DNA of 16,550 nt from Candidatus Eiseniibacteriota bacterium. Lineage in GTDB: Bacteria > JAFGKV01. The notes under the pieces are model-generated. The model was not told where the DNA came from, ran no database searches, and worked only from the letters and a program-made list of their open reading frames with translations. Location of the stretch: the NCBI GenBank assembly GCA_025453925.1, contig JALOPK010000069.1:1-16550 (forward strand). The letters run 5' to 3'. Both the position numbers and the translations under genes were made by a program. Position 1 is the stretch's first letter. Every line of letters starts with the position of its first letter. Shown piece after piece: positions 249-11,931 of this stretch.

Positions 249-407
249 ATGGAGCCTCGACTGAGGTTGACACGCCTGGTGGGCCACCACATCGTCGCGT
301 GGGCAGACAACCGGGGATTCGGGCGTTCCACTGTGCCGGTAGTCCCCGGCGACGCACTGGACTCCATTGCGTGCGAGGCAGGCGTGAGTACATCGAGGAC
401 AGAATGA
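249..407 (+). CDS. Possible small ORF (52 aa) coupled to the UPF0175-like gene
   Basis: An ATG at 249 opens a 52-codon frame ending in a TGA at 405-407. That stop overlaps the ATG of the next gene (404-406) in the classic ATGA arrangement. About 70% of its third codon positions are G or C, similar to real genes nearby, but the upstream ribosome binding site is poor. The product has no transmembrane segment or motif that I recognise; it contains the stretch GHHIVAWADNRGFG and a VVPGDALDSIA segment. I cannot assign a function. It could be a small partner of the UPF0175-like protein, the remnant of a longer gene (an in-frame TGA lies at 243-245), or a chance frame. The ATGA overlap is the main reason for listing it. 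Confidence 0.3.
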   Translation: MEPRLRLTRLVGHHIVAWADNRGFGRSTVPVVPGDALDSIACEAGVSTSRTE

Positions 408-604
408 CCAGGCGGTACTATTCGCACACCGGCTTGGAGACCTATGTGGTGCGGCTCTACAGGCGAGGAGAGCTGACGCTTCGCGAGGCGGCACGCCGGC
501 TTGGCCTTGATCTCGTGGCGACGATGGATCTCATGCTGGATCATGGTGTAAAAGGCAACCTCGACGCGTCGGACGTGGTGGAGGCCGCTGAGCGCTTCGG
601 CTGA
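404..604 (+). CDS. UPF0175-like small helix-turn-helix protein (antitoxin-like)
   Basis: This 66-residue protein starts at an ATG preceded by GAGGA (395-399). The open frame extends upstream to 137, but residues before this ATG are low-complexity Arg/Pro/Ser and look non-coding. The core, from about residue 10, reads ETYVVRLYRRGELTLREAAR followed by RLGLDLVATMDLMLDHGVKG. This matches the UPF0175 pattern of a short helix, then a helix-turn-helix of the form 'LYRxGxxSLxxAAxLxGL...', then a 'xxLLxxxGI' helix. Members of this family are often encoded beside PIN-domain toxins and are thought to act as DNA-binding antitoxins. No PIN gene follows here: the next gene, 85 bp downstream, is the Lon-like/FG-GAP membrane protein. 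It may be an orphan antitoxin, a regulator of that gene, or a solitary family member. The family call is by eye and moderately sure; the role is inference. Confidence 0.6.
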   Translation: MTRRYYSHTGLETYVVRLYRRGELTLREAARRLGLDLVATMDLMLDHGVKGNLDASDVVEAAERFG

Positions 605-689: not shown

Positions 690-3062
690 GTGGACGCCCA
701 ACCAGGCGGCACGCAACGGGACGAGACGCCAGCACGGATCACCGGCATCGCTGAGCTCGATCGACGGCACGGGGAGCTGGTGGCGTCGCTTCCCGTCTTG
801 GCGCCCAAGGTCGCGGCGCTCCGCCTGCTGGGGCACGCACGAGGGCTCCCCGATCTAACCTCGGCACCGCAGAGTCTGTTCTATCACCTGGACGCTTTGA
901 CCCGCATCGCGGCCTTGGTACTGGCCCCGGATCCCTTTACGTCGCATCCCGATCTCCTCGGCGATCTGTTGAGTCTGCTGGAAACTGCACCCCAGGGCCA
1001 CCCGGCGTTTCGCCGGGACGACATCTCCCAGGCGACCGCGCGCCTCGCGGCCCTGCTCGTCGTCGAGCACGCGATCCGAGGTGTCTGGGATCAGAGTCTG
1101 GCGCTGCTGGCGCGTATCTCCCACCGACTCGACTTGCCCGCCCGCTTCGCCACTGATCTCGCTGATGTTCCCCCGGATTGCCGATTCGAGGTCCTGTTCA
1201 CAAAGGTACGGTGCCTCCCGGTGTGCTCCGGGATGCACTGGCCGTATCACCTGCAGGACGGCGTGAACCTTCCGGAGGATACCCTGCTGACGGTCCTCAT
1301 TGACACCGACGCCGTTCCGCCTGCGTACCAGGAGGCCTACCTGGCGGCGCTCTCGGTGAAGGTGGAGGCCCGGAAGACGAGGACTGCGGCGCCGACGGTG
1401 ATTCGGTCCCAGGACGATCGGGGAGAGGATCTGCCTTTGGGCGAAACACTGAAGGAACTGGTTCGGGAGGCCATCGACCGCGCAATCGGGGTGCTGGGGC
1501 CATCTGCGACGGCGCGTATGGCAGGGAGGCAGCTCACGGTCGGGATTCTGCTCCGGAAGCCGGCCCCCGTCGAAGAGATTGAGGGCAGATCGCTCCTCCT
1601 GCCCCTCGTGTTGGCCCTGGCGCGACAGCTTGGCGAACAGCTCAACATGTCCGCCCGCCTTGATCCTTCGCCGTCGGCAGTCTGGACCGGCGATCTCGAC
1701 CGGCACGGGAACATCCGGTCGGTCTCCGGCATGCCGCTCAAGAGCGCACGGGTGGCGTCATCCCGTGCAGAAGCATTTGGCTTTCCTGAGGCGGATCACG
1801 GGGCGGTGACCGGGGCGCTGGCCGGTGCGAATCATGTTGTATCACTCGCGCCTCTTGCCCATGTCCTGGACGTTGACGAGGCCAAGGGATTGGCGAAGGT
1901 GACGCGTCGTCCCTGGACTGTGCGTACCGGTTTCGAGCTTCGCCGACGGGCCCGACCACTGGGCGTTGCCGGTGTGGTCGCACTGGGAATACTGCTGACA
2001 GCGCTGGGATTCGCCACGAGAAACCTCTCGTCGTGGCTCGACACGGAGGTTGCCAACGTGCGGTTGGGCCCGGGGGGCGACCGCATCGAGTTGCTCAACT
2101 CGTATCAACGTGTAGTGCACCGATTCCAGGTGGCACAGACCTCACCGAACCTGCGCCCCAGCCTCGGAGACGTGGATGGGGACGGCATAGTGGAGGTCTT
2201 CACCGGGACCGGCACTCTGGATTCCCTCCCAAGCACCGCGTTCTGCTATGACCAGCGGGGGCGCCTCATGTGGACGTTTCGCGGAGGGTTCCGCCCTGAC
2301 GAGCCGGTTCCTCCGGAGTTTGCCGAGTACGCCAACACGTTCAACATGGGGGGCGCCTACGTACGCGACGTCGATCGCGACGGGGTGGCTGATGTGTTCG
2401 TGGTCTTCAACCACAGCCCCTTCTGCGCCACCCAGATCGCCCGTCTCACTCCCGATGGTGCGTATGCCTCAAGCTTCTGGAACTGCGGCCACTGTGCCAG
2501 TACCAACGTGATCGCTCCCGACCTGACCTTCGATGACATCGATGGAGATGGATACGACGAGATTCTGGTCGCGGGAACCTCAAACGCCTGTGACAGAGCG
2601 GTGGTGATAGTGCTGGACCCGCGGAGTTTCGGTGGCCGCGGGCACGTGTGCGATGGCACCGACAGAACGCGATCGTGGCAGAGCTATATCCTGCTTGCCG
2701 ATCCCGAGGAAATCCGCCATGCCCTGCGCATGCCGCGCCTCCATGCAACCAGCATCGAGGCAAGGAACTGGAATGGGCAACGGGTGATCATGGCAGGTAT
2801 CTGGCTGGCTCTTGGCAGGCAATTCGAGGGAGCGTTCCGCTACCGGCTAGACCGGGATCTGAACGTGGTTGACTTCTACTGGTCCGACTGGTTCGTCGGT
2901 TGGGCCGATTCGGCGCGGTCGGCCGGGGCGTTGCCCGCCGATTGGAGCCTTTCCAGGTTCAGGGAACGGATGAAGCAAATCGAGGTCATCCCCGGCCCGC
3001 AATGGCTTTGGGAACCCGACCCGGAGCCCGCAACGGACCTCCCCGACGGTACGCCCTCTTGA
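690..3062 (+). CDS. Membrane protein with Lon-like cytoplasmic segment and extracytoplasmic FG-GAP/VCBS domain
   Basis: This 790-residue protein starts at a GTG preceded closely by AGGAGG (680-685). Residues 1-250 are a soluble, Leu/Ala-rich region without a motif I know, containing Cys164, Cys175 and Cys179. Residues about 251-400 resemble the S16 (Lon) proteolytic fold: an EGRSLLLP segment stands where Lon has its DGPSAG serine loop (Ser301), a TGDLDRHGNIRSVSGMPLKS stretch matches Lon's 'TGEI...G.V.PIGGLKEK' strand-turn, and Lys351 falls near the catalytic lysine. The serine loop is divergent, so activity is uncertain. Arg-rich residues 418-422 precede one transmembrane helix (about 424-442), which predicts the N-terminus inside and the C-terminus outside. 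The outer part has three calcium-loop repeats of FG-GAP/VCBS type at 494-499 (DVDGDG), 560-565 (DVDRDG) and 616-621 (DIDGDG), plus six cysteines, two of them in a CGHC. I know of no named family with this combination. A signal-transducing or regulated-proteolysis role is inference. Confidence 0.8.
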   Translation: MDAQPGGTQRDETPARITGIAELDRRHGELVASLPVLAPKVAALRLLGHARGLPDLTSAPQSLFYHLDALTRIAALVLAPDPFTSHPDLLGDLLSLLETAPQGHPAFRRDDISQATARLAALLVVEHAIRGVWDQSLALLARISHRLDLPARFATDLADVPPDCRFEVLFTKVRCLPVCSGMHWPYHLQDGVNLPEDTLLTVLIDTDAVPPAYQEAYLAALSVKVEARKTRTAAPTVIRSQDDRGEDLPLGETLKELVREAIDRAIGVLGPSATARMAGRQLTVGILLRKPAPVEEIEGRSLLLPLVLALARQLGEQLNMSARLDPSPSAVWTGDLDRHGNIRSVSGMPLKSARVASSRAEAFGFPEADHGAVTGALAGANHVVSLAPLAHVLDVDEAKGLAKVTRRPWTVRTGFELRRRARPLGVAGVVALGILLTALGFATRNLSSWLDTEVANVRLGPGGDRIELLNSYQRVVHRFQVAQTSPNLRPSLGDVDGDGIVEVFTGTGTLDSLPSTAFCYDQRGRLMWTFRGGFRPDEPVPPEFAEYANTFNMGGAYVRDVDRDGVADVFVVFNHSPFCATQIARLTPDGAYASSFWNCGHCASTNVIAPDLTFDDIDGDGYDEILVAGTSNACDRAVVIVLDPRSFGGRGHVCDGTDRTRSWQSYILLADPEEIRHALRMPRLHATSIEARNWNGQRVIMAGIWLALGRQFEGAFRYRLDRDLNVVDFYWSDWFVGWADSARSAGALPADWSLSRFRERMKQIEVIPGPQWLWEPDPEPATDLPDGTPS

Positions 3063-3329: not shown

Positions 3330-3340
3330 CTACTCGTTGA
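3215..3340 (+). CDS. Possible small Arg-rich ORF (41 aa) downstream of the palindrome
   Basis: The ATG at 3215 sits 6 bases after a good AGGAGG (3203-3208) and about 40 bases downstream of the palindrome/-10 element. The frame runs 41 codons to TGA at 3338-3340. It begins MPRAATRHRARCRRAREL and is strongly Arg-rich, with no recognisable domain. Its last codons overlap the 3' end of the sulfatase-like gene on the other strand. It could be a real small basic protein, or the start of a gene whose body was lost when the neighbouring segment joined here. A chance frame is also possible; only the promoter-RBS-ATG arrangement supports it. Confidence 0.2.
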   Translation: MPRAATRHRARCRRARELDTPLDRVPPANGRGRSSGAGSTR

Positions 3341-4646
3341 CGACATAGCCGAGGGCTTCGAGCCGCAGGTTCGTTTCAAGCTCGAGGACGGCCGGGTGTT
3401 CCTCGGGAACGGGCCGGTGAGCGTGCATCGCCAACATGATCGCGCCGAGGGAATCGGCGACTTCAGGCCTGTCCCTCGCGAGATTCTCCTTTTCCCGGGG
3501 ATCCTTCCGAAGGTGAAACAGCTCGGTGCGCACAACCTGTCCCGCCTCCTCGATCAGGGCCAGCTTCCAGTCGGCCGTTCTGATTGATTTCATCAATCCG
3601 CGGGGCCCACGGTCTTTCTGTGCCATTGAGACCCGCGCGTGCTCCCGACCGTTGCGGGAAGAGCCGCCCCGGATCAGGGGGATGAGAGTCGTTCCTTCAA
3701 AGGAATCGGGAATGCCCAATGCCGCCACATCGAGGATGGTCGGCGCGATGTCGATGCTGCGAACCTGTTCCCGCACGATTCTCCCCGCTGCCGCGGACCG
3801 AGGGAGTTTCACGATTAGGGGGACATGCAGCAGTTCATCGTACATGGTGTGCCCGTGCCACCCCATCATGCCATGCTCCCCAAACTCCTCACCGTGATCG
3901 GACGTGAATACGATGAGCGCCCGGTCGTAGACCCCCAGCGTCCGGAGCGAATCCATGAAGGTGGCGAGGGCCCTGTCCATGGAGAGGATCTCGGCATCAT
4001 ACGCCGCAACGATGTGGCGGCGATCGGTATCCGTGATGGAGCGCCTCCCCTCGTTGATGTCGGCGAGAAGGTGCTTGTTGATTCGCCCGGGCAAGGCGCC
4101 TCGGTATCTCCCGTCCAGCTTCCGCAGATATCCGGCCCGGGGATTGTATGGGGCGTGCACCTCGTATGTGTGCAGGAAGAAGAACGTGGAATCCGCGCCA
4201 TGGCGGCTGATCCACGAGAGGGTACTGTCTACCGTGGTTGAGAAGTGGTGCTCACCGACAACGACGTACCGGTCGAACCCGGCGTCGAGGCCGAACTCCG
4301 GCGCGATCTGGGCGCCGCCGTTGTAGGAGATCGTTCGATACGAGCCGCCCGCGAGCACCGCTGCCAGCGTCGTGAGGGAGGGAGCGCAACGCGTTTTCCG
4401 CCCATAGAACGCGCCGTGGTGGGCCGGATAGAGCGACGTGAGCATGGAGGCGTGCGAGGGGAGAGTGCTCGGTGCCTGGGCGGTCGCGGCGGCGAAGCGG
4501 ATGCCGTCCTTCGCCAGGTGGTCGACGCCGGGGGTCGACAGGCGGCGATACCCGTAGCAGCGCAAGTGATCGGGGCGGAGGGTGTCGATCGAGATGAGAA
4601 AGACGGGGCAGCCCGGTTCCGCAGGCCCCGGCCTCTTGCTTCGCAT
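3330..4646 (-). CDS. Sulfatase/alkaline-phosphatase-superfamily hydrolase with Thr nucleophile
   Basis: The chosen ATG (4646) gives 438 residues beginning ten residues before the conserved first strand. The frame could extend to a GTG at 4736, but none of the candidate starts has a well-placed ribosome binding site. Using numbering from 4736, the metal-binding Asp is in FLISIDTLRPDHLRCYGY (Asp51). The nucleophile segment is APSTLPSHASMLTSLYP, with Thr91 where classical sulfatases have the Cys of CxPSR. The late metal site is FTSDHGEEFGEHG (Asp280, His281). A C-terminal 'TADWKLAL...ELFHLRKDPREKENLA' stretch is typical of the family. With Thr, formylglycine cannot form, so phospho-transferase or phosphodiester/phosphatase chemistry is as likely as sulfate ester cleavage. 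No signal peptide or lipobox is visible from any start, which is unusual for this family. It lies 230 bp downstream of the ABC permease gene on the same strand and may be the last gene of that operon. Confidence 0.85.
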   Translation of the reverse strand: MRSKRPGPAEPGCPVFLISIDTLRPDHLRCYGYRRLSTPGVDHLAKDGIRFAAATAQAPSTLPSHASMLTSLYPAHHGAFYGRKTRCAPSLTTLAAVLAGGSYRTISYNGGAQIAPEFGLDAGFDRYVVVGEHHFSTTVDSTLSWISRHGADSTFFFLHTYEVHAPYNPRAGYLRKLDGRYRGALPGRINKHLLADINEGRRSITDTDRRHIVAAYDAEILSMDRALATFMDSLRTLGVYDRALIVFTSDHGEEFGEHGMMGWHGHTMYDELLHVPLIVKLPRSAAAGRIVREQVRSIDIAPTILDVAALGIPDSFEGTTLIPLIRGGSSRNGREHARVSMAQKDRGPRGLMKSIRTADWKLALIEEAGQVVRTELFHLRKDPREKENLARDRPEVADSLGAIMLAMHAHRPVPEEHPAVLELETNLRLEALGYVVNE

Positions 4647-4877
4647 TGTCCCGTGGCGTCGCACGTGGCGAGGCGCTCCCCGTCCGCCAGCGCCACAGAA
4701 CGGAGATGCACCCATCCCCACGACGGGTGCCTGCACGGGGAGTGATTATGGGTTCTCCTCGTGGCATGGGTCAAGTTCGGGGATCCCTCCGAGGGGAGTC
4801 AACACGGTTCACGGTCGCACGCTCCAGTGCCCATCGGTCAGCCGCCACGTCTTTCGCCGTCTGCCTGCGTTCGACCG

Positions 4878-5816
4878 CTACCGGCGTTCCTCGCGCCGGA
4901 ACGGAACGGTCAGGGCGGCAGGGGCGTCCATCGTGTGGCGCCGGGAGCGCCAGGCGACGAGAACGAGCACCGCGATGGTGGTCAGATATGGCAGCGTCTG
5001 AAGGAGGGGCGCCGAAACCGGGGATCCCAGGGCCTGAAAACGGAACGTCGCCGCGCCCACCAGGCCGAACAGGTAGGCGCCGAACAAGGCACGATAGGGC
5101 CGCCAGCACGAGAAGATCACCACCGCCAAGGCGATCCAGCCCCTTCCCGCCACCATGCGTTCGATCCACATCTGGTTGTAGGCGAGAGAAAGATGCGCGC
5201 CGCCGATGCCCGCCAGAATCCCCGCGAACGCCGAGGCCAGCATCCGCACCTTCACCACGGAGATGCCGTGGGCATCCGCGGCTTCGGGGTTTTCTCCCAC
5301 CGCCCGGAGCGCCAGACCCCAGGTCGTCCGCATCAGGATGAAGGCGATCGAAGGCACCAGCAGGACGCCGGCATAGGTCAGCGGGTCATGTCGGAAGAAG
5401 GCACGTCCGGCAAGCGGGATATCCGCCAGCAGCGGCACGGGAAGGGAATCGAGGCCGGGCGCGGTCTGCCCGATGAGCCGCTGCCCGAAGAACCCCGAGA
5501 TGCCGGTACCCAGCATCAGGAGGGCGAGTCCCGCCACTACCTGGTTCGCCCCCAGCAGAACCGTCACGCTCCCATGCAGGAGCCCCATGCACAGACCCGC
5601 GCCCCCGGCACAGGCCACGGCCAGGCCGGGATTCACTCCGGCATGACTCGCCGCGAATGCCGCCAGGGCGCCTACCAGCATGATGCCCTCGATCCCGAGA
5701 TTCAGCACACCGGCTCGCTCCAGGACGAGCTCTCCCAGCGCCGCCAGCAGGAGGGCGGTCCCGGCCTGGATGCCCGCAGCGATCAGGGCGGCGCACACGC
5801 CCATGGCATCAGTCAC
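4878..5816 (-). CDS. Nucleoside/purine-type ABC importer, permease 2 (NupQ-like)
   Basis: This 312-residue integral inner-membrane protein has 8-10 hydrophobic segments. The conserved start of this permease class is clear: LLLAALGELVLERAGVLNLG then IEGIMLVGALAAF, followed by GANQVVAGLALLMLGTGISG. The coupling-loop region that contacts the ATPase is about WGLALRAVGENPEAADAHGI. The first helices and length (family about 300-320) match the second, shorter permease of BMP-dependent nucleoside importers such as B. subtilis NupQ. Its ATG overlaps the stop of permease 1 by 8 bp (5809-5816), so the two are probably co-translated in equal amounts. The tail from about residue 290 is basic and should lie in the cytoplasm. 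Confidence 0.92.
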   Translation of the reverse strand: MTDAMGVCAALIAAGIQAGTALLLAALGELVLERAGVLNLGIEGIMLVGALAAFAASHAGVNPGLAVACAGGAGLCMGLLHGSVTVLLGANQVVAGLALLMLGTGISGFFGQRLIGQTAPGLDSLPVPLLADIPLAGRAFFRHDPLTYAGVLLVPSIAFILMRTTWGLALRAVGENPEAADAHGISVVKVRMLASAFAGILAGIGGAHLSLAYNQMWIERMVAGRGWIALAVVIFSCWRPYRALFGAYLFGLVGAATFRFQALGSPVSAPLLQTLPYLTTIAVLVLVAWRSRRHTMDAPAALTVPFRREERR

Positions 5817-6900
5817 CTGAGCCCTCCACAGCGGGAGACCCGGACAACTCCGGATGGCGTGCCTCGCCGTGACGGCGGCGCAGGAAGGCCTCCGCCGCGA
5901 GAGCGAGAAACAGGATCAGTCCCTGCAGGATATCGACCAAAGAGGACGGCACGCCCGCGCTCACCTGAAGCTGCTCTCCACCGGTCAACAGCATACCGAG
6001 GAACAACGCCACGGGGGGAATCGCTAACGGGTGAAGGCGTGCCAGCCACGCCACCAGAATGGCGGTGTAACCGTACCCCGGCGAGAACCGCGGCTGCAAC
6101 CGGTGGAGGACTCCCGCCATCTCGACCCCGCCGGCGAGGCCGGCCAACGCGCCGGAGATGAGCATCACCACCACGACGTCACGGCGGATTCGATACCCCG
6201 CGTACTCGGCGGCCCGCGCATTGCTCCCCGCGACCCGCACCTGGAACCCCCACCGGGTGCGCCACAGGAGCGCCCACAGCAGCACCGCGCCGATGAGCGC
6301 GATGGCGAGCCCTCCGTGCACCCGCGTGCCGGCATAGGTTGGCAGGTCGGCATCGGCGGGAAACCGGTCGGACATGGGGAATCCGAAGGTGGTCGACCCC
6401 TTCCACGGGCCGTAGCAGAGATGATCGGCGAGGAGCATGGCCAGGTAGTTCCCCATGAGCGTGACCAGAATCTCGCTGACGCCAAGAGAGGCCTTCAGTA
6501 TCCCGGGCGCCAGCGCCCAGGCTGCCCCCGCCGCGCACGCCGCGGGCAGCATGAGCATTACTCGGGGAATCCCGCACCGCGGCAGGAACAAGGCAACCCA
6601 GGCCGCCGCCAGCGCCCCCGCGTAGAGCTGCCCCTCGCCGCCGATGTTCCACAGCCGCATTCTGAAGGCGACTGCGACCGCCAGCCCCGCGAGCATGAGG
6701 GGCGTCGCCTTCACGACGCTCTCGGAGAAACCGTAGCGTGTGCCCAGCGATTCCCGGAACAACGCTGCGCAGGCTCCGGCCCCATGGATGCCGGCGGCCC
6801 CGAGCACCACGTGGCAGGCGAGCAGGACCGTGCCAACCGCGCCCGCGATCACGGCGAGATCGCGGCACGCCCGGCGCAGGATGACTGCCGCAGCGCTCAT
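5809..6900 (-). CDS. Nucleoside/purine-type ABC importer, permease 1 (NupP-like)
   Basis: This 363-residue integral membrane protein has about ten hydrophobic segments. Recognisable parts are LGTRYGFSESVVKATPLMLA, AVAFRMRLWNIGGEGQLYAGALAA, GVSEILVTLMGNYLA, and the coupling region WGFQVRVAGSNARAAEYAGY. These are characteristic of the longer permease of the BMP-family nucleoside importers. The length fits the family (about 350 residues). The start ATG overlaps the stop of the ATPase gene by 4 bp (ATGA, 6897-6900). It pairs with permease 2 to form the transmembrane channel of the importer. The substrate class is inferred from the whole cluster, not from this protein alone. Confidence 0.92.
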   Translation of the reverse strand: MSAAAVILRRACRDLAVIAGAVGTVLLACHVVLGAAGIHGAGACAALFRESLGTRYGFSESVVKATPLMLAGLAVAVAFRMRLWNIGGEGQLYAGALAAAWVALFLPRCGIPRVMLMLPAACAAGAAWALAPGILKASLGVSEILVTLMGNYLAMLLADHLCYGPWKGSTTFGFPMSDRFPADADLPTYAGTRVHGGLAIALIGAVLLWALLWRTRWGFQVRVAGSNARAAEYAGYRIRRDVVVVMLISGALAGLAGGVEMAGVLHRLQPRFSPGYGYTAILVAWLARLHPLAIPPVALFLGMLLTGGEQLQVSAGVPSSLVDILQGLILFLALAAEAFLRRRHGEARHPELSGSPAVEGSGD

Positions 6901-8423
6901 CCACCACGCTCCTGGCCCATCATATCCCGCCCCAGCTGGAGGCGGTTCGTAGACGCGGGACGTCGCTCCGCAACGATTCGACCCCGGGCCAGCACCACGA
7001 TCCGGTCACTCAGCGCGAGGAGATCATCGACATCCTCGCTTATCAGCACGATGGCAGTCCCCGACGAAGCCAGGCCCTGGAGTCGCGCCCTCACGAAGCG
7101 AGTCGCCCGCGCGTCCAGCCCGCGGAGGGGATACTCCGCAATCAGCAGCCGGGGCGGCTCGCGGGTCTCACGGCCGACAAGGAGCCTCTGCATGTTGCCC
7201 CCTGATAGGAGGCGGACGGGCCGCCCGGGGTCGCCGGGCTCAATCCCCTCCGCTTCTGCCAGGTCAGCGCCGAAGCGTCGCACCGCCCCGCGGGACAGGA
7301 TCGGCCCACGGCCAAGCCGCGGGTGCCCGAGCCACGTCATCACGGAGTTCTCTGCAAGCGTCAGGTCAGCCGCAAGGCCACGGCCACGCCGGTCTCCGGG
7401 CACGAACCGCACACCGCTGCGGCGGAAGTGCCGCGAGGGCCGGCCGGTCATGTCCTTCCGGCCGATGAGGACGGCTCCTCCCGAGGGTGCCAGGAGGCCG
7501 GCCATGACTTCGGCCAGCGCCGACTGCCCTGCTCCCGCAAGGCCCGCGACCCCGAGGATCTCTCCAGGCAGCACTTCGAGGTTCACGCCGAACAAGACCG
7601 CCGCCCTTCGATCGGAAGTCTGGATGTCCCTCAGCTGAGCGGCGGGTTCCCCGGAGGGGTTCGGGCGGGGAGAGGCCTCCCCGGGATGCCCGGCATCGCC
7701 CATCATGTGCGCGACGATCTCGTCAGGGGTGCACCCGACCGCCGGCCCAGTATGGACCACTCTCCCGTCCCGCAACACGGTGATCTGGTGCGCAATCTCC
7801 CGCACCTCTTCGAGCTTGTGGCTGATGAACACCAGCGCGGTTCCGCCTGCCGCCAAGGCGCGGAGGGTAACGAAAAGACCCTCCGTCTCCTGGGGAGTCA
7901 GCACCGCGGTCGGCTCGTCGAGTATCAGCACCGCCACCTCCCGCGCCAGGTTGCGCAGGATGTCGACTTGCTGTTGTTCCGCCACCGAGAGGTCGCCGGC
8001 CCTCACATCTGGGCGGAGGCGGAATCCCAGCCCATCCGCCAGTGCCGCGGCGCGGCGGCGAAGCTTCGGCTGGCGGAGGGCCCATGGGATAGAGCGGTCG
8101 CCCACTGCCAGGTTCTCGAGGACCGTCATGCCGCCAAACAGCATAGGATGCTGATGCACCATGCCGATGCCGGCCCGCAATGCGTCGGCGGGGGAGTGGA
8201 ATCGGACGGATAGTCCCCGCAGGCGTATGTCGCCCGCGTCCCGCGCGTAGCTCCCGGCGAGAATGCTCATCAGCGTGCTCTTGCCCGCGCCGTTGGCTCC
8301 CAGCACAGCGTGGATCCGTCCGGGTTCGAGATCGAGATCAACGTGGTCGTTGGCCCGCACGCCGCCAAACGACTTGGTGATACCGCGAAGTTCTACGATG
8401 GGTGGCAACGTGCCCTCACACAT
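6897..8423 (-). CDS. Nucleoside/purine-type ABC importer, tandem ATP-binding protein (NupO-like)
   Basis: This 508-residue protein has two fused nucleotide-binding domains, as usual for sugar/nucleoside importers. Domain 1 has Walker A GANGAGKST (42-50), Q-loop Gln91, signature LSVAEQQ (145-151), Walker B LILDEP (166-171) and H-loop His202. Domain 2 has a degenerate Walker A, GLAGAGQSA (294-302, Gln replacing Lys), the signature LSGGNMQ (406-412), and LLIAEYPLRGLD (426-437) where relatives read LLIAxxPTRGLD. Degeneration of the second site is the family norm. The ATG at 8423 has no ribosome binding site; an in-frame TTG at 8408, five codons in, has GAGGG at a good distance and gives LPPIVELRGITKSFG, so it may be the true start. 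The gene lies 97 bp after the binding-protein gene. Confidence 0.94.
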   Translation of the reverse strand: MCEGTLPPIVELRGITKSFGGVRANDHVDLDLEPGRIHAVLGANGAGKSTLMSILAGSYARDAGDIRLRGLSVRFHSPADALRAGIGMVHQHPMLFGGMTVLENLAVGDRSIPWALRQPKLRRRAAALADGLGFRLRPDVRAGDLSVAEQQQVDILRNLAREVAVLILDEPTAVLTPQETEGLFVTLRALAAGGTALVFISHKLEEVREIAHQITVLRDGRVVHTGPAVGCTPDEIVAHMMGDAGHPGEASPRPNPSGEPAAQLRDIQTSDRRAAVLFGVNLEVLPGEILGVAGLAGAGQSALAEVMAGLLAPSGGAVLIGRKDMTGRPSRHFRRSGVRFVPGDRRGRGLAADLTLAENSVMTWLGHPRLGRGPILSRGAVRRFGADLAEAEGIEPGDPGRPVRLLSGGNMQRLLVGRETREPPRLLIAEYPLRGLDARATRFVRARLQGLASSGTAIVLISEDVDDLLALSDRIVVLARGRIVAERRPASTNRLQLGRDMMGQERGG

Positions 8424-8450
8424 GGGTGGGGAGCAGGTTACGCTTCACGG

Positions 8451-8475
8451 GCCGCCCTGATTGGCAAGGGGCGGC
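8451..8475 (-). promoter_or_regulatory. GC hairpin between binding-protein and ATPase genes
   Basis: GCCGCCC (8451-8457) and GGGCGGC (8469-8475) form a perfect 7-bp stem with an 11-base loop in the 97-bp gap after the binding-protein stop. No T-run follows, so it is not a standard terminator. Such inter-cistronic stems commonly protect the upstream message from 3' decay or partly attenuate transcription, giving more binding protein than membrane components. This role is inferred from position. Confidence 0.45.
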
Positions 8476-8520
8476 GAGGTTCGGGGTTCGGCCATCAGCC
8501 TGGACTGCCGGCACCCGGTG

Positions 8521-9636
8521 CTACTTCGGTATGGTGCCCGCCACGCCCTGCACGAAGTAGGACATGCTTAGCAGCTCCTCGTCGGTCGCCCGGGCGCCCG
8601 CTGGATAGGCCTCGGTGCCGTCCTGTCGGATGATCGGCCCATGGAACACGTCGAAGCTCCCATCTGTGATTTCCCGCTGGCGGGTGCCAACCCGCTGCCG
8701 CACCGTTTCGGGCACGGCGGGGCCCCACGGGGCCAACTTGGTGATTCCGGTCTCGATACCCCACCAGTAGTCCTCCGCCTTCCAGATTCCGGCCAAGACC
8801 TCGTCAACGATGCGGGAGTAGAGAACGCTCCAGTCCCACACCGCCGCCGTGATGAATCTTGTCGGCGCGAAGGCCCGGGCATCGGAGTTGTAGCCGATGG
8901 CGAAGGCCCCGCGCTCTTCGGCAGCCTGGAGCGGAGCGGGGGAATCACCCTCGGTCATGATGACGTCGCATCCCGTGTCCATGAGGCTGAGGGCGGCATC
9001 CTTCTCCGCCGCGGGATCATACCAGGCATTGGTCCACACCACATGGACCGTGCAGGACGGGTTCGCCTCCCGGGCCCCCAAGGTGAAGGCGTTTATGTGT
9101 CGGATGATCTCGGGGATAGGCACCGGAGCGACGAAGCCGATCTTGCCCGACGTCGTCAGCGCGCCGCCCGCAAGTCCCGCGAGGTAGATGGTCTGATACG
9201 CGCGACCGAAATAGGTCCCGACATTGGCGTCGCGCTTGAAGCCCGTGGCGTGCATGAATGCGACTCGGGGGTACTTCGCGGCGGTGGCCAGCACCGCATC
9301 CATGTACCCGAAGCTGGTGGCGAAGACCAGAGCGCATCCCTCCTGGGCCAGCCTTGTCAGGACACGTTCCGCGTCGGCGCCCTCCTTCACGTTCTCCACG
9401 TAGACGGTCTTCAGGCCGCGATAGCGCGTCTCCAGCGCCCGGCGGCCCTGATCATGGGCGAAGGTCCAGCCCGCGTCACCGATCGGGCCGACGTAGACGA
9501 ATCCGACTTTGAGATCCACCATGGCGACGGTATCCCCCACGGCCGGCACCGCCTCGCTCCGGCCGGGTGAAGCTCGATCACCGCACGAGACCGTCGCGAG
9601 AATCGCCATTATCCACGCACCGTTCCAACGCACCAT
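8521..9636 (-). CDS. BMP-family substrate-binding lipoprotein (nucleoside/purine type)
   Basis: This is a 371-residue periplasmic binding protein of the BMP/Med/PnrA family. Two ATGs lie in tandem (9639 and 9636). AGGAGG at 9642-9647 is only 2 bases from the first and 5 from the second, so 9636 is chosen. The N-terminus is a short hydrophobic leader (AWIMAILATVSC); Cys18 is a plausible lipidation site although Thr at -3 is not ideal. The mature domain starts LKVGFVYVGPIGDAGWTFAH followed by DQGRRALE, typical of the family. Further family hallmarks are the segments LVFATSFGYMDAVLATAAKYP, YFGRAYQTIYLAGLAGG and GKIGFVAPVPIPEIIRHINAF. Relatives bind nucleosides or purine bases, and one spirochaete member (RfuA) binds riboflavin, so the exact ligand is open. 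As the first gene of the cluster it delivers substrate to the ATPase and permeases downstream. Confidence 0.92.
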   Translation of the reverse strand: MVRWNGAWIMAILATVSCGDRASPGRSEAVPAVGDTVAMVDLKVGFVYVGPIGDAGWTFAHDQGRRALETRYRGLKTVYVENVKEGADAERVLTRLAQEGCALVFATSFGYMDAVLATAAKYPRVAFMHATGFKRDANVGTYFGRAYQTIYLAGLAGGALTTSGKIGFVAPVPIPEIIRHINAFTLGAREANPSCTVHVVWTNAWYDPAAEKDAALSLMDTGCDVIMTEGDSPAPLQAAEERGAFAIGYNSDARAFAPTRFITAAVWDWSVLYSRIVDEVLAGIWKAEDYWWGIETGITKLAPWGPAVPETVRQRVGTRQREITDGSFDVFHGPIIRQDGTEAYPAGARATDEELLSMSYFVQGVAGTIPK

Positions 9637-9648
9637 CATAACCTCCTT

Positions 9649-10046: not shown

Positions 10047-11360
10047 ATGGATCGACCTAAGACCGTTGCGCCCGCCGATGGTACGCTGGGCGTTCTGCTC
10101 CCCGGGATGGGAGCTGTCGCTACGACCTTCATCGCCGGCGTTTCAGCCGTTCGCAGAGGACTCGGGCTTCCCATCGGCTCCCTGAGCCAGATGGGCACCA
10201 TCAGGCTCGGGAAGAGAACCGACGGAATCACCCCCCGCATCAAGGACTTCGTCCCCCTTGCCTCCCTCGACCAGCTCGCTTTCGGCGGCTGGGATATCTT
10301 CGAGGATACCGCGTATGATGCCGCAATGAGGGCAGGAGTCCTGCGGCCCGAGCTCCTCGGGAAGCTCCAGCAGGATCTCACTCGCATCGCGCCAATGTCC
10401 GCCGTTTTTGATCGCCACTACGTTAAGCGCCTGGATGGTCCCAATGTGAAGAAGGGCGCGAACTGGCGGGATCTGGCCGATCAACTCGCCGATGACATCG
10501 CGGCATTCAAGCAGCGGAACGGCTGCGCGCGGATGGTCATGATCTGGTGCGGCAGCACCGAGATCCACCTCGCGCAGTCGGAGGTGCACCAGACCCTGGA
10601 ACGCTTCGAACGTGGTCTCGGCGACCGCGATCCCGCAATCGCCCCCAGCATGGTGTATGCCTACGCGGCCATCAAGGCAGGTGTACCATTCGCCAACGGG
10701 GCGCCCAACCTGACCGTCGACATTCCCGCCCTCTTGTCCTTCGCCCGTGACCGCGGAGTCCCGTTGGTAGGCAAGGATTTCAAGACTGGCCAAACGTTGA
10801 TGAAGACGATAATCGCCCCGGGCCTGAAGGCGCGAATGATCGGCATCAGAGGTTGGTTCTCGACCAATATTCTCGGGAATCGCGACGGCGAGGTGCTCGA
10901 CGACCCGGAAAGCTTCAAGACCAAGGAAGAGAGCAAGCTCAGCGTGCTCGAACAGATCCTCCAGCCCGAGAAGTACCCCGAGCTGTACGAGCACCTCTAT
11001 CACAAGGTTCGAATCAACTACTACCCGCCCCGGGGCGACGACAAGGAGGGGTGGGACAACATCGACATCTTCGGCTGGCTGGGCTATCCGATGCAGATCA
11101 AGGTCGATTTCCTCTGCAAGGACAGTATCCTGGCCGCGCCTCTGGTGCTCGACATTGCGCTGTTCCTCGACCTGGCCGCCCGATCCGGATGGCGAGGGAT
11201 TCAGGAATGGATGTCGTTCTTCTTCAAGAGCCCCATGCATGCCCCGGGGCTCTATCCGGAGCACGACCTGTTCATCCAGGCCATGAAGCTGAAGAATACA
11301 CTCCGGTTCTTGATGGGCGAGGAGTGCATTACGCATCTGGGAAACGAGTACTACGACTGA
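10047..11360 (+). CDS. ino1: myo-Inositol-1-phosphate synthase
   Basis: The NAD-dependent enzyme converts glucose 6-phosphate to 1D-myo-inositol 3-phosphate, the first step to inositol and inositol lipids. The protein has 437 residues, the usual length of the long bacterial form. The dinucleotide-binding segment GVLLPGMGAVATTFIAGV is at 15-32. The active-site motif GKDFKTGQT, with its lysines, is at 242-250. STNILGNRDG lies at 272-281 and DIFGWLGYPMQIKVDF at 340-355. The fold's C-terminal return to the Rossmann domain is visible as SILAAPLVLDIALFLDLA. The ATG has a GGGAGGA (10034-10040) six bases upstream. It is transcribed divergently from the nucleoside-type transporter and lies about 100 bp ahead of the EIIA-type gene. 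No inositol monophosphatase or phosphatidylinositol synthase gene is in the window. Confidence 0.95.
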   Translation: MDRPKTVAPADGTLGVLLPGMGAVATTFIAGVSAVRRGLGLPIGSLSQMGTIRLGKRTDGITPRIKDFVPLASLDQLAFGGWDIFEDTAYDAAMRAGVLRPELLGKLQQDLTRIAPMSAVFDRHYVKRLDGPNVKKGANWRDLADQLADDIAAFKQRNGCARMVMIWCGSTEIHLAQSEVHQTLERFERGLGDRDPAIAPSMVYAYAAIKAGVPFANGAPNLTVDIPALLSFARDRGVPLVGKDFKTGQTLMKTIIAPGLKARMIGIRGWFSTNILGNRDGEVLDDPESFKTKEESKLSVLEQILQPEKYPELYEHLYHKVRINYYPPRGDDKEGWDNIDIFGWLGYPMQIKVDFLCKDSILAAPLVLDIALFLDLAARSGWRGIQEWMSFFFKSPMHAPGLYPEHDLFIQAMKLKNTLRFLMGEECITHLGNEYYD

Positions 11361-11457
11361 AGGATCACAGCCCAGGGGAGAGCGCGCGTTGATAGGTCAA
11401 GCTCCGCCAGGAAGAGGTCTCACGAGGAAGGAACCCGAGCCCAAGCGTCCCGGACCG

Positions 11458-11931
11458 ATGGAACCGAAGGTATTCACCCGGTTCCTCAAGCCGGATTCCT
11501 ACATGCCTGACTTGAGGGCCAGGGATAAGCCCGCGCTTCTTCAGGAGCTTCTGTCGGGGCTCAAGCAGCCTGGCCTCGAAAACGAGTGCTGTGGCGTTCA
11601 CGAACTCCTCCTTGCCAGAGAGCGGGTCGGCACCACCGCTCTGGGCAAGGGGCTCGCGGTGCCCCACGCCCGCACCGCGCTTGTCACGACGCTGAGCGTC
11701 GTGATCGGCCGGTCCGTGGAGGGTGTGGACTATGGGGCTCCCGATCGGAAACCGGTTCACGTCTTTTTTCTCGTCCTCGGTCCCAACGAGGATCCCAGCC
11801 AGCTCTATCTTTCTTTTCTTAGCACGATCGTGAAGGTGTTCAAGTCGCGGGCCATGAAACGCCGACTTCTCGCCGCCGCGAGCTTCGAGGAGTTGGTCGG
11901 AATCCTGGAGGATGCACTGGCTTGTGAATAA
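11458..11931 (+). CDS. PTS EIIA type-2 domain protein (PtsN/fructose-type)
   Basis: This 157-residue single-domain protein is of the PTS fructose/nitrogen EIIA fold. The phosphorylation motif is clear: LGKGLAVPHARTALV, with His70 the predicted phospho-acceptor. VFFLVLGPNEDPSQLYLSFLSTI and the C-terminal SFEELVGILEDAL helix match the family. The frame opens upstream to a TTG at 11389, which has AGGGGAG (11374-11380) at a fair distance; that start would add 23 Pro/Lys-rich residues outside the domain. The ATG at 11458 fits the family length but has no good ribosome binding site, so the start is open. No sugar-transport EIIB/EIIC genes are nearby, so a regulatory role (PtsN-like) is more likely than sugar uptake. 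The 3' end overlaps the zinc-ribbon gene. Confidence 0.88.
   Translation: MEPKVFTRFLKPDSYMPDLRARDKPALLQELLSGLKQPGLENECCGVHELLLARERVGTTALGKGLAVPHARTALVTTLSVVIGRSVEGVDYGAPDRKPVHVFFLVLGPNEDPSQLYLSFLSTIVKVFKSRAMKRRLLAAASFEELVGILEDALACE

Follow-up and report, generated by a model that had tools for sequence, protein, structure and literature searches.

The window analyzed here, 16,550 nucleotides long, is an entire contig of a 3.9-Mb draft genome of a Candidatus Eiseniibacteriota bacterium. An open reading frame at positions 690 to 3062 of the forward strand begins with GTG, remains open throughout and encodes a protein of 790 residues; a Shine-Dalgarno sequence, AGGAGG (680 to 685, same strand), lies four bases 5′ of the start codon. 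We regard it as a real gene because paralogues share 35 to 48% identity across its Lon-like region. Both the reading frame and the build that an earlier note on this DNA had reported for its product, i.e., a Lon-like segment, one transmembrane (TM) helix and an outer FG-GAP domain, were confirmed, the latter by an AlphaFold model and by Pfam FG-GAP matches above cut-off; a helical domain precedes the Lon-like segment.

A TolQ/ExbB-family gene also lies in the window, and the open reading frame after it is ExbD/TolR-like by eye. A cell envelope with two membranes is therefore probable, which would probably put the outer domain of the 690-3062 protein in the periplasm. Elsewhere, a sulfatase-family gene (3330 to 4736, reverse strand) adjoins a PnrA/BMP-type nucleoside ABC transporter cluster (4878 to 9639, reverse strand), and a myo-inositol-1-phosphate synthase gene and then a PTS EIIA-type gene occupy positions 10047 to 11931. 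Upstream, a small open reading frame for 66 residues (404 to 604, forward strand) scores 26.7 bits against UPF0175, for which the Pfam cut-off is 27.9. The earlier note had placed a UPF0175-like regulator directly in front of the 690-3062 gene; the reading frame is indeed there, but as a partner it is not supported, since nothing equivalent turned up at the other loci searched, and it is probably an incidental neighbor.

The AlphaFold model of the full-length protein, obtained with 8 sequences (mean pLDDT, 79.6), comprises an all-helical N-terminal domain (residues 20 to 174), a mixed domain (198 to 406), one long helix (409 to 450) and an all-beta C-terminal domain. On the forward strand, residues 1 to 197, which lack a Walker A motif, correspond to positions 690 to 1280; the S16 Lon-like domain, delimited by fold and profile comparison (about residues 198 to 407), to 1281 to 1910; the hydrophobic TM stretch (residues 424 to 442) to 1959 to 2015; and the extracytoplasmic FG-GAP-type domain (residues 443 to 779) to 2016 to 3026. 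No member of the window's lineage has a Walker A motif, and no AAA family of Pfam matched. The outer domain was recognized by Pfam FG-GAP_3 (PF13517; 27.5 bits, cut-off 26.9, E = 4.9e-6) and FG-GAP (PF01839; 23.9 bits, cut-off 22.1, E = 3.9e-5), and its median length in 50 relatives is 334 residues. The 18 residues that precede the TM helix contain seven Lys or Arg residues versus two after it, consistent with the positive-inside flanks described before, and the inner side is the richer one in 49 of the 50 relatives. The protein is thus predicted to be single-pass, with a cytoplasmic N terminus.

The FG-GAP-type domain contains three DxDxDG loops, as previously noted, starting at residues 494 (positions 2169 to 2186), 560 (2367 to 2384) and 616 (2535 to 2552). 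Loop 1 is mostly retained in relatives and loop 3 is invariant within the window's lineage, whereas loop 2 is absent from most relatives. Because of this loss, calcium as the signal is not supported, and we read the loops as structural, as loops 1 and 3 look to be. Of the suggestion that an outside ligand or calcium state is sensed, the sensor part is retained and the calcium part is dropped.

The resemblance to Lon had been proposed from motifs only. VIA-align searches with the full model yielded a top Z score of 17.9 (192 aligned residues, 3.0 Å), with Lon, RadA or BrxL in all 50 rows listed, and searches with a domain-only model of the Lon-like region (pLDDT, 72.1) a top Z score of 14.2 (176 residues, 3.4 Å), with Lon, RadA or ComM in all 50; structure prediction and structural search thus match the S16/Lon fold at Z scores of 14 to 18. 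Foldseek also matched the region (1.4e-7). In hhalign comparisons with profiles of Lon and LonB-type proteins from the same phylum, Ser301 and Lys351 took the places of the catalytic Ser and Lys, respectively, with scores of 27.4 and 35.3 against shuffle maxima of 20.0 and 20.5, and none of 200 column shuffles reached either. A ComM profile scored at noise against the family profile. When a profile made from the family only was run over 386 genomes, 22 of the 22 loci fetched outside the family were Lon-type, as called by DGPSAG-, DGPSSG- or GDSA-type motifs, in part with a script and otherwise by eye. Pfam Lon_C did not match the window protein; it gave E = 0.037 for one paralogue in a genome search and 31.3 bits, above its cut-off of 21.1, for a distant member of a sister lineage. 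The cytoplasmic domain is predicted to have the S16 fold, and support for the Lon reading now goes far beyond a shared motif.

Ser301, the predicted nucleophile (codon at 1590 to 1592, forward strand), and Lys351, the predicted general base (1740 to 1742, forward strand), had been put forward as the key residues, with free variation at these positions named as grounds for abandoning the idea. In an alignment of 50 relatives from several phylum-level groups, both are invariant (50/50), and only two other columns, both glycines, are fully invariant, making 4 among the 163 well-covered columns of the domain. The residue preceding Ser is Asp in 34 relatives, Arg in 10, Asn in 3, and Glu, Pro or Ala in 1 each. 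The window's lineage has Arg there and 49 residues between Ser and Lys; relatives outside it mostly have Asp, with an interval of 50 to 51. The departure of EGRSLLLP from DGPSAG had been a worry, which is answered by the LonB-like GDS that most relatives have at this place. In published Lon proteases the residue before Ser is Pro in LonA and Asp in LonB and LonC, and 42 residues separate Ser and Lys in LonA and LonB; the authors of that work regard the residue before Ser as unlikely to matter greatly for catalytic properties (PMC9569914). The window protein, with Arg and 49 residues, differs from LonA and LonB on both counts, and its lineage lacks the AAA+ module that they carry in the same chain. 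LonB and LonC share with the family the S16 fold and, with most of the distant relatives of the window protein, the Asp before Ser; they differ by their AAA+ module, which is degenerate in LonC and into which the TM segment of LonB is inserted, and the interval of 42 in LonB compares with 49 to 51 in the window family. The domain thus has the predicted S16 fold and the Ser-Lys dyad, yet stands outside the known Lon subfamilies.

RadA and ComM use a Lon-like fold as an oligomerization or binding module. The S16 domain might likewise be non-proteolytic and signal without cutting, by contact with the zinc-finger protein described below. This is the chief rival to a protease. In its favor are the Arg that the window's lineage has in front of Ser, the missing AAA module and the scores of RadA and ComM, which are close to those of Lon in the fold lists. 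We nevertheless consider it unlikely, as the perfect conservation of both predicted catalytic residues in a domain with so few invariant columns speaks against it, and RadA copies of the same phylum, inspected by eye, have no Ser at the equivalent motif.

We also looked at where the outer domain occurs. A class-wide search in the acidobacterial class of locus L015 revealed proteins of about 420 to 620 residues with one TM helix and the same ectodomain; comparison of the ectodomain with this acidobacterial domain gave a profile E value of 3.1e-37 over 288 columns. N-terminal to their TM helix are HTH_17/MerR-like or Trans_reg_C winged-helix segments, of which Trans_reg_C scored above the Pfam cut-off and MerR and HTH_17 below. 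These proteins (L070 to L088) constitute a family of membrane transcription regulators with several members per genome, and the N termini of L074, L078 and L081 match no DNA-binding family of Pfam. In other genomes, a combined ectodomain profile detected a protein with a Ser/Thr kinase, a TM helix and the ectodomain (L094, genome G350), a VWA and PKD protein whose C-terminal end is the same FG-GAP-type domain (L092, genome G325), and three further proteins of the Lon-like-TM-ectodomain type (L093, L095 and L096, the last with an in-frame TAA). The outside part has the look of a sensor, and these homologies indicate a modular one: elsewhere a single helix connects it to HTH, winged-helix or Ser/Thr-kinase outputs. 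ToxR/CadC-type one-component regulators similarly combine a cytoplasmic output with one TM helix; among them are the acidobacterial HTH-TM-FG-GAP proteins, whose ectodomain is homologous to that of the window protein. The output of such regulators is DNA binding, whereas it is an S16 domain here.

Searches with single sequences and with the Lon-like profile had returned three genomes only, as if the family were restricted to one lineage, a view refuted by the ectodomain and combined profiles. The Lon/TM/ectodomain order was found again in three other phylum-level groups; in phylum-wide searches, about 30 of 132 genomes of one phylum carry members, and further members occur in another. The genomes surveyed are drafts and metagenome-derived. 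The window's phylum was represented in the searches by three genomes, all of which carry the receptor family: the window's own genome has one further full paralogue and one fragment, a congener has five matched places, and the third genome, of the same family, has one, the matches being 36 to 43% identical. The window gene thus truly belongs to a paralogous family, as one of its dispersed copies. A tandem pair of receptor genes (L012, 1 to 921 and 921 to 3209; L011, 3851 to 6133 and 6181 to 6294) is conserved across two species of the genus, and in L012 it adjoins polysaccharide-deacetylase-like and TsaB-like genes, named by eye. The Lon/TM/FG-GAP order has no named family, as the earlier note supposed: neither Pfam nor NCBIfam has a model that covers the whole protein. 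Literature searches combining Lon-like, S16, transmembrane and FG-GAP, or FG-GAP with anti-sigma and ECF, returned nothing on this architecture.

At 34 loci, a gene for a zinc-finger protein of about 290 residues with an HxxxCxxC motif lies directly upstream of the receptor gene, on the same strand. The motif is present in 37 of 38 zinc-finger matches, the exception being a truncated open reading frame. The partner weakly resembles anti-sigma and zf-HC2 models (for one partner, Pfam zf-HC2 gave 18.6 bits, below the cut-off of 22.2), and the three proteins checked have no hydrophobic segment. Profiles made solely from zinc-finger proteins of the window's lineage detect the partner in the other phylum, with E values down to 3e-18.

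In two lineages the module also includes an ECF sigma gene. At L013, in the window's phylum, the only one in which an ECF sigma gene stands in front of the zinc-finger gene, the genes run ECF sigma, zinc finger, receptor; at L105 they run receptor, sigma, zinc finger. At L181, a zinc-finger open reading frame lies 3′ of the receptor gene, as seen by eye. The sigma slot of the remaining loci is filled by proteins of about 360 residues that have no recognized domain and are related to one another among loci. They precede the zinc-finger gene at L149 (2731 to 3840), L150 (8210 to 9292), L106 (6148 to 7245) and about 25 further loci. Pfam gave no match for them, a profile comparison with an ECF sigma set gave P = 0.07, and their weak likeness to ECF region 2 is one of pattern only; they may constitute a new family of sigma-like proteins.

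Within the available sequence, no anti-sigma-like gene lies upstream of the window copy or of its paralogues at L010, L011 and L012. Another contig of the window's own genome (L066) ends with a sigma/zinc-finger pair, precisely where a receptor gene would come next, and the third genome has such a pair with no receptor gene in the following 1.2 kb. The operon with the zinc-finger gene, which recurs among relatives from several phyla, suggests an undescribed route by which an outside signal might reach gene expression through protein cutting. The zinc-finger gene at 34 loci and the ECF sigma genes of two lineages support the idea of a regulated-proteolysis system in the earlier note, whose interpretation held up for the fold, the dyad, the topology, the novelty of the domain order and the system, and not for the UPF0175 neighbor and calcium.

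YlbL of Bacillus subtilis is an AAA-less, membrane-anchored S16 protease with a Ser-Lys dyad that acts in a checkpoint (PMC6051672), and LonB is membrane bound (PMC9569914). The family might similarly perform quality control and degrade damaged or short-lived membrane proteins, with the ectodomain serving to bind clients or the cell wall and no signaling role of its own. We find this improbable in view of the fixed linkage to a zinc-finger gene, the fact that transcription regulators and a kinase carry this ectodomain too, and the several paralogues per genome. YlbL, which shares the AAA-less S16 domain, the anchor and the dyad, has the order TM-Lon-PDZ, with the protease outside the cell, and has neither an FG-GAP domain nor an anti-sigma partner.

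The CRISPR cascade of CalpL, CalpT and CalpS offers a parallel. CalpL, a Lon protease without an AAA module, binds cA4 through its SAVED domain; the oligomerization that follows switches the protease on, so that it cleaves the anti-sigma factor CalpT, and the ECF sigma factor CalpS is freed as a result (PMC11417357). In both cases an AAA-less Lon domain is tied to a sensor and has anti-sigma and ECF sigma partners, here in two lineages. An operon with Lon, anti-sigma and ECF sigma genes like that of CalpL, CalpT and CalpS occurs at L013 and L105; most other loci have the unrecognized protein in the sigma slot, and nothing of the kind lies beside the window gene. The CalpL sensor is SAVED/cA4, cytoplasmic and part of type III CRISPR, whereas the sensor here is an FG-GAP-type ectodomain across the membrane, with no CRISPR link seen and no PADLOC match for the window protein. 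The family might instead serve in conflict or anti-phage defense, as a relative of CalpL outside CRISPR that senses attack at the envelope. This would fit the protease/anti-sigma/sigma logic and the weak match to CARF_LON (E = 0.0095) that PADLOC gave for one member, but is very improbable, as the other three members scanned have no PADLOC match, SAVED and CARF domains are absent, and no CRISPR genes were noticed at the loci read.

Taken together, sequence, model and analogy lead us to favor, with a probability of roughly 60%, a single-pass receptor protease that would cut its zinc-finger partner and thereby free a sigma or sigma-like factor. The analyses above establish the fold, the conservation of the dyad, the topology, the modular nature of the sensor and the conserved gene linkage; the ligand, activation step, peptidase activity and substrate are what we infer. 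The periplasmic FG-GAP-type ectodomain would bind a ligand or report on the envelope, which would change how the TM helix packs or oligomerizes. The AAA-less cytoplasmic S16 domain, with Ser301 and Lys351, would thereby turn into an active peptidase and cleave the soluble, zinc-finger anti-sigma-like protein, whose cleavage would release the sigma or sigma-like factor. The window copy would be a dispersed paralogue with its partner encoded elsewhere in the genome. Weighing against the receptor protease are the Arg before Ser, the interval of 49 rather than 42 residues, the lack of an adjacent anti-sigma gene at the window gene and at L010 to L012, and an ECF sigma gene in the sigma slot only in the phylum of L013.

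In regulated intramembrane proteolysis of the RseA/RsiV type, an envelope signal frees an ECF sigma factor through proteolysis of a membrane anti-sigma factor by separate site-1 and site-2 proteases. The proposed mechanism shares the envelope signal, anti-sigma proteolysis and sigma release; it differs in that a single chain would be both receptor and protease and would act on a soluble anti-sigma factor. The known outputs of bacterial one-chain receptors are kinase, cyclase, phosphatase and DNA binding; to our knowledge, a transmembrane sensor that acts directly through a protease in the cytoplasm would add a new one. Sensor-controlled AAA-less S16 proteases are already known, namely CalpL and YlbL, and the receptor proteases have a fair chance of meriting a separate class. 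More tentatively, at somewhat under even odds, they would represent a new class of enzyme-coupled receptors in at least four phylum-level groups, single-pass and with a cytoplasmic Ser-Lys protease, which would release sigma or sigma-like factors in one ligand-gated step, as an alternative to the intramembrane cascade with its two proteases, with the protein of about 360 residues as a possible new sigma-like partner. If true, the logic of CalpL, i.e., sensor, Lon domain, anti-sigma and sigma, would be linked to ordinary envelope signaling, which hints that CalpL may have been recruited from such receptors or have a common origin with them.
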